Positions 17,680 to 21,209 of a stretch of DNA of 64,000 nt are shown here, piece by piece. Positions within the stretch are counted from its first letter, which is position 1. Every line of letters begins with the position of its first letter. This stretch comes from Deltaproteobacteria bacterium (lineage in GTDB: Bacteria > Desulfobacterota > Binatia > UBA9968). The notes below the pieces were generated by a model. The model saw nothing but the letters and a program-made list of their open reading frames with translations. It did no database searches and was not told the DNA's origin. The DNA lies in the NCBI GenBank assembly GCA_016874755.1, contig VGTH01000002.1, forward strand, positions 124,501-188,500. Reading direction: 5' to 3'. Position numbers and translations under genes: made by a program.

Positions 17680-17804
17680 CGGGTTGACTCCGTAAGCGAA
17701 TCGGCCGCAAGAAATTCCCACGAAACTAACATAGAGAATGACACACTTGCAATTTCATCGGCGCGTTATCAAGATGACGTTTATAGAGTAGCGAGGACAT
17801 GGAC

Positions 17805-18032
17805 ATGACCACCGACAAAGTGCTGATTTTTGGGCAAGACCTTTGACCCTACACCTCGGGAGCCCGTGAGGCTTTCACCCGCCGCAAGATCCCGTTCGAG
17901 TATGTCAATGTCCTGGAGGACGACACCGGCTTGGAACGTATGCTCAAGATTTCCCACGGCCGGCGCAAGATTCCCGTCATCGTTGAAGGCGACAGCGTCA
18001 CCATCGGCTTCGATGGCAGTTGAGAGGTCTAG
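17805..18032 (+). CDS. Glutaredoxin-like double selenoprotein, two in-frame TGA codons, U-x-x-stop tail
   Basis: Reading one frame from the ATG at 17805 (GAGG eight bases upstream) to the TAG at 18030-18032 gives 75 residues if the two in-frame TGAs (17844-17846, 18021-18023) encode selenocysteine (U). The N-terminus MTTDKVLIFGQDLUPYTSGA puts the first U exactly at the first cysteine of the glutaredoxin CPYC motif (here UPYT). It continues AREAFTRRKIPFEYVNVLED, then ERMLKISHGRRKIPVIVEGD with the family cis-proline, and ends VTIGFDGS-U-E-V-stop. The rest of the frame is uninterrupted and conserved in character, and each TGA has a hairpin about 18-19 bases downstream, as bacterial SECIS elements do. 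I recall a curated UXX-star (seleno)protein family with this layout; membership is from memory. A cytoplasmic thiol/selenol redox role is inferred. Standard gene finders would miss it. Confidence 0.82.
17858..17876 (+). promoter_or_regulatory. Candidate bacterial SECIS hairpin for the first Sec codon
   Basis: GGGAGCC (17858-17864) pairs with GGCTTTC (17870-17876) through five Watson-Crick and two G-U pairs, with loop CGTGA. The loop begins 18 bases after the TGA and has G at its second position. Known bacterial SECIS elements need a short stem, an early loop G and roughly 16-37 bases between UGA and loop. Confidence 0.6.
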
Positions 18033-18035
18033 ACC

Positions 18036-18052
18036 GACCGGCGGCGCCGGTC
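18036..18052 (+). promoter_or_regulatory. Candidate bacterial SECIS hairpin for the second Sec codon
   Basis: GACCGGC (18036-18042) and GCCGGTC (18046-18052) form a perfect 7-bp stem with loop GGC. The loop starts 19 bases after the TGA at 18021-18023 and begins with G, which fits bacterial SECIS geometry. Because it lies mostly past the TAG stop it is not constrained by coding, so its perfect pairing is notable. It could alternatively be part of a terminator, but no T-run follows. Confidence 0.65.
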
Positions 18053-19335: not shown

Positions 19336-20412
19336 ATGAACCCGCCCATGCAAGATTGGCTGTCTGCCGAACTGCGCCAGCGCTTCAGCGCCGGCTGCGA
19401 GTTGTTGTCTCTGACGCCGCTTGCCGGCGATGCTTCGAGCCGGCGTTACTATCGCGCCCGCCTAAGCGGCACCGAAACCGTACCGTCACTGATCGTTATG
19501 CAACTGCCCGAGGGAAGTTCGCTGCCGCTCTCGTCTGAGGAACTGGCAGTGTTCAAGGAAGCTCCAAAGGAACTGCCTTTCATCAATGTTCACCGCTTCT
19601 TGGAAAAGATCGGCGTGTGCGTGCCAAAACTTTACGGTTATTGGGAGAATGAAGGCATTTTAGTGCTCGAAGATTTGGGCGATCAGCCGCTGTGGGAGCG
19701 GGTGCAGAACATTCCTCCTCAGGAAGTCCTGGTTTGGTACAAAAAAGCCCTTGATGAATTATTGACACTACAACGGCGCGGCACGGCGCAGCGTGACGGG
19801 GACTGCATCGCGTTCCAACAACGTTTCGACTATGCGCTGTACATGTGGGAGTTCGATCATTTCCTACAGTACGGTTTATCTAAGCGGCCCGGCCTAGTCG
19901 TCAGCGACGCTTTGCAAAAGGACTTACGCAGTTGCTTCACAACGATCGCCCGCGATCTCGATCATGAGCCGCCGTGCTTGAACCACCGCGACTACCATAG
20001 TTGGAACTTGATGATTCACGACGAAAAAGTCGCGGTCATCGATTTTCAAGACGCGCTGTTGGCACCGCCGCAATACGACCTCGCCTCGTTGTTGAACGAT
20101 CGCATCACCGACAGCGTCGTGACCACCGAGCTGGAAAAGGAGCTGCTCGATTATTTTCTCGCCGGACGCAAAGACTTCGCCGCACCGCCTGTGACGAAAG
20201 ATCATTTCGTGGAAATCTACCTGCTCTCGGCGATTCAGCGCGACCTCAAGGTCGTCGGCCGCTTTTACTACCTCGACGTCGTGAAAGGCAAACCCGGCTA
20301 CATGAAATTCGTCCCGCCGACGCTGCGCCGGTTAAAACGCAACCTAGCGCGGCTACCACGCACCGAACATCTGCTGCCGTTACTGGCCGAGCATTTCGCA
20401 GAGCTGCGCTGA
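19336..20412 (+). CDS. amgK: AmgK-type anomeric MurNAc/GlcNAc kinase
   Basis: A 358-residue aminoglycoside-phosphotransferase-fold kinase. The catalytic loop CLNHRDYHSWNLMIHDEKVA and the metal site VIDFQDALLAPPQYDLASLL are typical of the cell-wall sugar kinases that phosphorylate the anomeric hydroxyl of N-acetylmuramate and N-acetylglucosamine. The start region GDASSRRYYRARL is the nucleotide-binding strand. The next gene is a MurU-type uridylyltransferase on the same strand; together they convert recycled MurNAc to UDP-MurNAc, bypassing the early cytoplasmic steps that fosfomycin blocks. The gene pairing makes the call stronger than the sequence alone. Confidence 0.86.
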   Translation: MNPPMQDWLSAELRQRFSAGCELLSLTPLAGDASSRRYYRARLSGTETVPSLIVMQLPEGSSLPLSSEELAVFKEAPKELPFINVHRFLEKIGVCVPKLYGYWENEGILVLEDLGDQPLWERVQNIPPQEVLVWYKKALDELLTLQRRGTAQRDGDCIAFQQRFDYALYMWEFDHFLQYGLSKRPGLVVSDALQKDLRSCFTTIARDLDHEPPCLNHRDYHSWNLMIHDEKVAVIDFQDALLAPPQYDLASLLNDRITDSVVTTELEKELLDYFLAGRKDFAAPPVTKDHFVEIYLLSAIQRDLKVVGRFYYLDVVKGKPGYMKFVPPTLRRLKRNLARLPRTEHLLPLLAEHFAELR

Positions 20413-20424
20413 ACGGCTTTGCCC

Positions 20425-20459
20425 TTTTTTAGTTTTGAATTGTTAATTTTTAATTCGCA
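20425..20459. repeat. AT-rich word repeat between amgK and murU
   Basis: TTTTTTAGTTTTGAATTG then TTAATTTTTAATTCGC, a short AT-rich inverted element, like the one at 5648-5678 in style but with other words. It leaves no ribosome binding site before murU. Confidence 0.5.
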
Positions 20460-21209
20460 ATGAAAGCCATGATCTTTGCCGCCGGTCTCGGCGAGCGCTT
20501 GCGACCGATCACCAGTCGCTTGCCCAAGGCGCTGGTACCCGTTGCCGGTCGGCCGATGATCGACTACCCGCTGGCATTGCTGCGCCATTACGGCATTCGC
20601 GACATCGTGATCAACCTGCATCACCTGGGCGAACAGATCGAGGCTTATTTGGGAAACGGCGCAGCGCAGGGGCTTAGCATCGTCTACTCCAGAGAGGACG
20701 AGCTGCTCGATACCGGCGGCGGGCTGCTCAAGGCAAAACCTTACCTGCAAGACGACCGCTTCGTGGTTATCAACACCGATGTGTTGATCGACCTGCCGCT
20801 CGCTGCATTGGTCGACTTTCACCAGCGAAATCGGGCCGCGGCGACGCTCGCGGTGCGCCCAGATCCGTTTGCCGACCAATTCGGTTCGATGGAGGTAGAC
20901 GAGTCAGGACGGATCGAACGCTTCCTTCAAGTGCACCGACCGAACGCGATCCCTGCGGCGAGAGAAAAGCTAATGTTCACCGGCGTGCAGATACTTGAAC
21001 CACGCATCTTCGACTACATGCCGCCGCCAGACCGGCAGAAAAAATTTGGCACGACCAAAGACACCTACCCGCGCATGCTCACCAGCGGCGAGCCGCTCTA
21101 CGGCTTTCGCTTTGACGGCTACTGGCAGGATCTCGGCACGGAGCAAAGAGTCGCCGCAGCCGAGCAAAGTTTGGCTCAAGCAACGACGAGGCTTCACTAC
21201 CTGAGTTGA
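20460..21209 (+). CDS. murU: MurU-type N-acetylmuramate-1-phosphate uridylyltransferase
   Basis: A 249-residue nucleotidyltransferase. The signature MKAMIFAAGLGERLRPITSR with PKALVPVAGRPMIDYPL binds the nucleotide, NTDVLIDLPLAAL holds the metal-binding Asp, and GYWQDLGTEQRVAAAEQSL is the conserved C-terminal region. It transfers UMP from UTP to MurNAc-1-phosphate to make UDP-MurNAc in the peptidoglycan recycling route with AmgK. A mannose- or glucose-1-phosphate transferase is the alternative, but the partner kinase argues for MurU. Confidence 0.87.
   Translation: MKAMIFAAGLGERLRPITSRLPKALVPVAGRPMIDYPLALLRHYGIRDIVINLHHLGEQIEAYLGNGAAQGLSIVYSREDELLDTGGGLLKAKPYLQDDRFVVINTDVLIDLPLAALVDFHQRNRAAATLAVRPDPFADQFGSMEVDESGRIERFLQVHRPNAIPAAREKLMFTGVQILEPRIFDYMPPPDRQKKFGTTKDTYPRMLTSGEPLYGFRFDGYWQDLGTEQRVAAAEQSLAQATTRLHYLS

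Follow-up and report, generated by a model that had tools for sequence, protein, structure and literature searches.

A probable double selenoprotein gene of UXX-star selenoprotein family 1 and its two proposed SECIS elements

On the forward strand of the stretch of DNA analysed here (64,000 nucleotides, hereafter the window), a short glutaredoxin-like reading frame is interrupted by two in-frame TGA codons, and the locus raises the question whether these codons are read as selenocysteine (Sec) or end translation in a gene that has decayed. The window comes from contig C2; the assembly comprises 5.56 Mb, with a listed completeness of 99.55%. According to the sequence-only reading of this DNA, one frame of 75 residues extends from an ATG with a Shine-Dalgarno site to a TAG if exactly two TGAs are taken as sense, and the positions collected in Table 1 bear this out. 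With U at the TGAs, the translation is MTTDKVLIFGQDLUPYTSGAREAFTRRKIPFEYVNVLEDDTGLERMLKISHGRRKIPVIVEGDSVTIGFDGSUEV. Another ATG in the same frame, at 17799, stands just 2 nt from the GAGG. The same reading had stated that ordinary gene calling would miss the gene, and indeed the list of open reading frames contains no standard-code frame of at least 60 amino acids in this frame at the locus.

Table 1. Parts of the UXX-star family 1 gene in the window, with their state in the relatives compared
Feature	Position	Strand	Remarks
UXX-star family 1 gene, very probably a double selenoprotein gene	17805..18032	+	75 residues, ATG to TAG, two in-frame TGAs
Shine-Dalgarno-like GAGG	17793..17796	+	8 nt 5' of ATG; read from the sequence
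TGA of putative Sec14	17844..17846	+	first redox residue position, U-P-Y-T; 85 loci: TGA 73, TGC 8, TGT 4
SECIS 1 core, proposed (GCC CGU GAG G)	17862..17871	+	offsets 22-23 (loop G, U), counted from the U of the UGA
TGA of putative Sec73	18021..18023	+	third residue from the C-terminus; TGA in 85/85 loci
TAG terminator	18030..18032	+	two codons past Sec73; relatives TAG 35, TGA 33, TAA 17 (n=85)
SECIS 2, proposed	18036..18052	+	7-bp hairpin, loop GGC, wholly 3' of the stop codon

Family, relatives and Sec machinery

The gene is a member of an already named family. Its protein matches the NCBIfam equivalog NF041114, 'UXX-star selenoprotein family 1', with 106.9 bits against a cut-off of 72 over model positions 1-70 of 70, and the broader Uxx-star model NF041212 with 83.8 against 66 bits. 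It remains below the cut-offs of NF041211 (family 2; 49.8 vs 100 bits), NF047338 (family 3; 51.7 vs 97 bits) and NF045501 (HUGP/GUXX-star fusion; 49.2 vs 325 bits). The 'UXX-star' family that the earlier reading had named is thus identified by a match above the curated cut-off. With TGA taken as Sec, the C-terminal arrangement of Sec, two residues and stop is present as U-E-V-TAG, a tail that gave families 2 and 3 and the HUGP/GUXX-star fusion, all related in sequence, their name. A 2026 review lists NF041114 as 'Distant Grx-like protein 1 (UXX-star selenoprotein family 1)', with a UxxT motif and two Sec (PMC13188914), which corresponds to the UPYT and U73 found here; with full-length match, UxxT at site 1 and U-X-X-stop in common, no difference between this protein and family 1 was seen. 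The kind of protein is therefore not novel, the two Sec being listed in that review. The review also cites an ocean metagenome study of 2008 (PMC2398784); the main text of that study does not carry the name 'Distant Grx', its 'Grx-like' family is a UxxC family, and the sole UxxT belongs to another family. Haft and Tolstoy 2025 is the reference that the review gives for family 2 and for the HUGP fusion (PMC13188914).

Four family 3 relatives from the same class (L044, L045, L046, L047) possess CP(H/Y/W)C at site 1 and end in GG-x-x-F-stop, with A, U, S and S, respectively, at the tail Sec position, so that Ser or Ala appears able to take the place of the tail Sec in family 3. Four relatives of the class (L130-L133, in genomes G138, G133, G108 and G124) contain a further glutaredoxin-like frame, whose single TGA falls at the redox site in a G-U-x-(S/A)-C-H context and which possibly encodes another selenoprotein glutaredoxin.

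Within the class, 26 of the 148 genomes searched contain a match above the NF041114 cut-off, and all of these belong to the order of the window (26/35 genomes, as against 0/113 in the rest of the class). Judged by record titles, the family also occurs far outside this order, in Methylomirabilota, Acidobacteria, Desulfobacterales, Planctomycetota and others. The comparison set combines the class with named genomes, the scan of the latter supplying the best 80 of 153 relatives, and one of the two retrieval patterns in that scan stops at the site-1 column. The locus pattern admitted only Sec or Cys, and a single record of 106, L116, failed it through a longer tail (1821-2036; U-R-V-V-stop in place of U-X-X-stop). 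De-duplication of the remaining 105 records gave 85 unique loci; L044-L047, which are below the family cut-off, and L116 were left out.

The 26 class loci have TGA at site 1 in 23 cases and TGC or TGT in three, and TGA at site 2 throughout. Across the 85 loci, site 1 holds either TGA (73) or a Cys codon (12), as had been expected for homologues at the first TGA column, and site 2 is TGA in every one. The claim that both TGAs fall at redox columns consequently stands for site 1; at site 2, which is never Cys, it does not stand as a statement about a Sec/Cys column. For 10 of the 12 nearest relatives listed, those with a computable dS, dN is 0.14-0.23 and dS 0.90-1.19, which indicates purifying selection and not decay. 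It would be conceivable that a glutaredoxin gene has decayed and acquired two stops by chance, a view that fits two in-frame stop codons as such and the unremarkable folds of the single sequence described below; but in the relatives, too, TGA stands in both of these columns (73 and 85 of 85), the gene is under purifying selection, and the genome carries a Sec machinery, which makes decay extremely improbable and agrees with the earlier argument that random decay would not leave such a frame.

This machinery had been named as something to look for, and selA, selB, selC and selD are all present in the source genome. The tRNA-Sec (selC) scores 75.9 bits against a gathering score of 47, and selD, selB and selA adjoin each other on contig C16 with 382, 411 and 600 bits, all above cut-off; SelD has an in-frame TGA of its own, in the context AAGUAAK. 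A genome-wide reassignment of TGA to Cys or Trp would likewise open the frame at 17805-18032. However, TGA ends 15 of the 44 long non-overlapping ORFs of the window, so that it has not been reassigned as a whole, and together with the presence of selABCD this renders reassignment practically negligible as an explanation.

Of the 148 class genomes, 118 have a selB match above cut-off and 107 a tRNA-Sec match. Sec genes are thus not discriminating here, because most genomes have them anyway. Where the gene is present (26 genomes), SelB exceeds its cut-off in 20 and tRNA-Sec in 19; re-inspection of G140 gave a partial SelB match (203 bits, positions 117-580). Three genomes, G127, G130 and G138, contain a UXX-star 1 gene with in-frame TGA and neither SelB nor tRNA-Sec above cut-off. 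We put this down, without proof, to fragmented assemblies, although G138 is listed as 100% complete. Taken together, we think that the locus is very probably an intact double selenoprotein gene of UXX-star selenoprotein family 1, as judged from comparison of the genes.

Proposed signals for the two probable Sec codons

For UGA14, the evidence for a SECIS lies in codon choice. At codons +4 to +7 behind this UGA, the use of synonymous codons is more restricted than elsewhere, and the restricted stretch lies 18-23 nt past the UGA. The codon of the invariant Ala is GCC in 26/26 class loci and in 70/85 overall, and the following Arg is encoded by CGT in 51 and by CGG in 20 of the 73 Sec loci, as compared with CGC 124, CGG 100 and CGT 35 among the 338 Arg codons in the remainder of these genes. 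In 80 of 85 loci, offset 22 carries G and offset 23 carries U or G, which matches the position of the loop GU in the E. coli fdhF SECIS (offsets 22-23 from the UGA); the constrained bases of the fdhF element are given as U17, G23 and U24 (PMC8659212). Positions 20 and 26 can pair in 68 of the 73 Sec loci, as C-G in 60 and as U-A in 8; the U20-A26 form is confined to loci with deltaproteobacterial titles (8/8), but corresponds to two changes only on the tree.

A motif GC[CT]CG[TG], defined after the data were seen, occurs in 70/73 Sec loci vs 4/12 Cys loci (Fisher p 1.5e-6, uncorrected for relatedness). Three of the four Cys loci that keep it (L018, L023, L025) pair on the tree with Sec relatives. 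Corrected by the tree, the association of motif loss with Cys does not reach significance (median p 0.25 over 6 pairs), the independent pairs pointing in the same direction in 2.7 cases on average, with 0 against and 3.2 undecided of 6. This tree was built on 68 columns and is poorly resolved.

As to structure, the window's gene can form GGGAGCC-CGUGA-GGCUUUC at site 1, of which the 73 Sec loci share mainly the loop and two closing pairs. Contiguous hairpins at site 1 gave no signal (-1.8 kcal/mol mean vs -2.6 in shuffles), RNAalifold found no consensus over the 73 Sec loci, and over the 23 class Sec loci it found a 2-bp consensus that 3/150 codon-permuted controls equalled. Folding against synonymous-codon shuffles reached a best z of -0.32 +/- 0.09 near site 1 vs -0.55 +/- 0.14 elsewhere in the gene. 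Taken by itself, the window's own sequence shows no better folding than shuffles at either proposed SECIS (z -0.50 and +0.31), so that the case for both is a comparative one. On this comparative support, the constraint on synonymous codons after UGA14 probably marks SECIS 1.

For UGA73 the geometry is different. Just two codons follow it, and because of this a SECIS for Sec73 must sit mostly past the stop codon. When the 34 nt that follow the stop were scanned for the best hairpin, the mean energy was -10.4 kcal/mol, and 80% of 84 loci (L031 being too short for the energy windows) reached -8 or lower; in four control windows lying further downstream this share was 5-8%, and among shuffles it was 12%. 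A hairpin with at least 4 contiguous pairs is present in 84/85 loci, L107 having none. These 84 hairpins have a G within the first two loop positions in 82 cases and a loop G[G/U] in 81, the most frequent loops being GGUC, GGC, GGG, GUC, GUU and GGA, and the distance from the Sec UGA to the loop is 15-22 nt in 81. At each of the stem positions 1-6, at least 5 kinds of standard pair are found, though the scan selects paired stretches. A bacterial SECIS is modelled in the literature with a loop of 3-9 nt, a G in its first two positions, a stem of at least 4 bp and 16-37 nt from the UGA (PMC13188914). The model also sets an energy limit; on stem, loop G and spacing, the window's gene and 77/85 loci agree with it, and L107 plus seven others fall short. 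RNAalifold behind site 2 gave no structure in a 25-row alignment (A2), in which the rows L023 and L042 begin a few bases too soon and the hairpins are misregistered.

The location of this hairpin is unusual. Bacterial SECIS usually lie inside the coding region (PMC13188914), and the deep-Sep paper places them immediately downstream of the Sec codon and gives SECIS in untranslated regions for archaea and eukaryotes. Unlike the E. coli fdhF SECIS and typical bacterial elements in coding regions, the proposed SECIS 2 is past the stop codon. In the open-access literature passages searched, no description was found of a bacterial-type SECIS wholly past the stop in this way or of the true UGA stops treated below.

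A different view of the same hairpin is that Sec is inserted at site 1 only, that the TGA at 18021 is a real stop and that an intrinsic transcription terminator follows. A G+C-rich hairpin right behind a stop can belong to a terminator. Yet in 85/86 loci precisely two codons separate the site-2 TGA from a second stop, L116 with U-R-V-V-stop being the exception, and the last two residues are EV in 29 loci, GV in 25, AV in 13, SV in 7, and others, with V or I at the end in 85/85. The restricted loop and spacing in 81 of the 84 hairpins each, and the lack of a T-run after the hairpin in the window's own sequence, also speak against a terminator, which we consider very improbable. We prefer the view that the hairpin just past the stop is, on comparative support, a candidate SECIS for Sec73.

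Mechanistically, SelB with Sec-tRNA would read UGA14 with the aid of the SECIS inside the coding sequence and UGA73 with that of the second SECIS past the stop codon, and the spacing between a UGA and the SECIS loop, 15-22 nt in 81 of the 84 hairpins behind site 2, would mark a UGA as a Sec codon. Recoding at a single UGA has been put at 30-40% in vivo (PMC4513850), and little full-length protein may therefore be made. That both UGA14 and UGA73 are decoded as Sec via two SECIS is, in our estimate, about 95% probable, an estimate that draws on the alignments of related genes.

The true stop deserves attention in this context. It is itself UGA in 33/85 genes, two codons after the Sec UGA and 9 nt further on; among the 26 class loci, this holds for 5. 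The tree requires a minimum of 18 changes between TGA and another stop, and of 9 between Sec and Cys at site 1. From the stop UGA to the SECIS 2 loop, the distance is 6-13 nt (32 measurable of 33), which is outside the published 16-37 nt, and we propose that this short spacing may explain why the second UGA terminates. Avoidance of a UGA terminator next to a Sec UGA was also considered. Over 78 loci, 31 such terminators were observed vs 39.6 expected from neighbouring ORFs (p 0.055), which is a slight shortage at most.

Fold, chemistry and gene neighbourhood

The part of the protein outside the two TGAs had been described as glutaredoxin-like, and this is confirmed by the Pfam Glutaredoxin domain (38.8 vs 22.9 bits) as well as by the predicted structure. 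AlphaFold2 on 74 aligned members gave a model with pLDDT 93.2 and pTM 0.81, in which four strands are accompanied by two helices and residues 73-74 form a short bridge. Judged against known glutaredoxin structures, the model presumably lacks the last glutaredoxin helix. With VIA-align, its Z score is 10.5 to cGrx1, a selenoprotein glutaredoxin of Clostridium oremlandii, 10.1 to NrdH and 9.5 to E. coli Grx3; in the 50 rows of this comparison the aligned range is residues 5-71 and stops short of the Sec73 tail. A sequence search of solved structures returned 32 distinct sequences, mostly named glutaredoxins, with the best stretches ending by profile position 69, and when profiles were compared, the alignment with E. 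coli Grx3 covered residues 5-64 only. The predicted model thus has the same fold as glutaredoxin 3, NrdH and cGrx1 (PDB 7c10, 7c12), with Z about 10 over residues 5-71, and differs from them by the Sec-bearing tail and by the lack of a second redox Cys, as the CPYC of classical dithiol glutaredoxins is replaced by UPYT.

What such a protein does can be envisaged in two ways, and for this combined proposal, a glutaredoxin/NrdH fold without second CPYC Cys and last helix whose two Sec act in either of them, we judge the odds to be even. In the first, Sec14 would attack a disulfide, an oxidised sulfur or a metal-bound thiolate, and Sec73, on its short tail, would resolve the Sec14 intermediate as an internal diselenide. 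In the second, the double selenoprotein is the same, but Sec14 and Sec73 would jointly bind a soft metal or metalloid and not take part in thiol-disulfide exchange. The metal-ligand role is a serious rival to the redoxin reading: the review suggests a possible metal-ligand function for Sec in the UXX-star family (PMC13188914), the UPYT motif offers no second Cys, and site 2 is never Cys in 85 loci. Against it, the predicted fold is that of a redoxin, and the recurrent neighbours, a minority of which was scanned, showed no conspicuous metal-resistance gene. The IPVI stretch, moreover, resembles the cis-Pro loop of redoxins. On balance, we regard metal binding as rather unlikely and prefer the redoxin reading.

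Classical dithiol glutaredoxins are reduced by glutathione. Among the 26 genomes with the gene, glutathione synthetase, GshB, is above cut-off in 12, including the window's own, and weaker or partial in 2. It was not found in the other 12/26, among them 7/7 of family f3, and GshB-made glutathione is therefore probably not a general requirement; we infer that the reductant need not be glutathione. The f3 genomes concerned are G110-G114, G116 and G117, in which the UXX-star 1 gene is present and GshB not detectable; two of them are assembled in one and four contigs.

The gene neighbourhood does not single out a pathway. In the window, genes with CN_hydrolase and NAD_synthase domains lie upstream on the opposite strand; downstream there is a metallophosphoesterase gene (opposite strand), followed on the plus strand by genes for an APH-type kinase and a nucleotidyltransferase. 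The last two (window 19336-21209) are AmgK-like (100.8 vs 500) and MurU-like (180.1 vs 250), respectively, both below the curated cut-offs. Of 81 loci, 14 have an APH-type kinase gene downstream in the same orientation, with distances of 24-88 nt in the eight nearest cases, and 11 have a nucleotidyltransferase gene downstream. A TIGR00730 Rossmann protein is encoded nearby in 15/81 loci, 12 of them on the same strand (three examples scanned); its eight nearest cases lie 34-187 nt downstream, in L105, L096, L116 and others with deltaproteobacterial titles. The recurrent neighbours are read as lineage synteny and not as proof of a shared pathway; the neighbours vary by lineage, and the 81 loci give no pathway common to them.

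A possible ruler for the meaning of UGA

As the family was named before, what is added here is the SECIS evidence and the pattern of UGA stops. With somewhat less than even confidence, we suggest from the sequence comparison that UXX-star 1 genes may serve as a natural ruler for the meaning of UGA, in that one SECIS behind the gene would recode a UGA located 15-22 nt before its loop, whereas a UGA 9 nt further on would terminate, and that the tail Sec, which Cys would be unable to replace, would serve a glutathione-independent diselenide redoxin. UXX-star 1 genes are common in the order of the window yet invisible to a plain ORF listing, and the comparative data yield testable SECIS positions for both Sec codons. 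In the genes with a UGA stop, nature provides constructs with a single SECIS in which the first UGA appears to be read as Sec and the second, 9 nt away, as stop, and such pairs offer a direct route to measuring the spacing rule of SelB.
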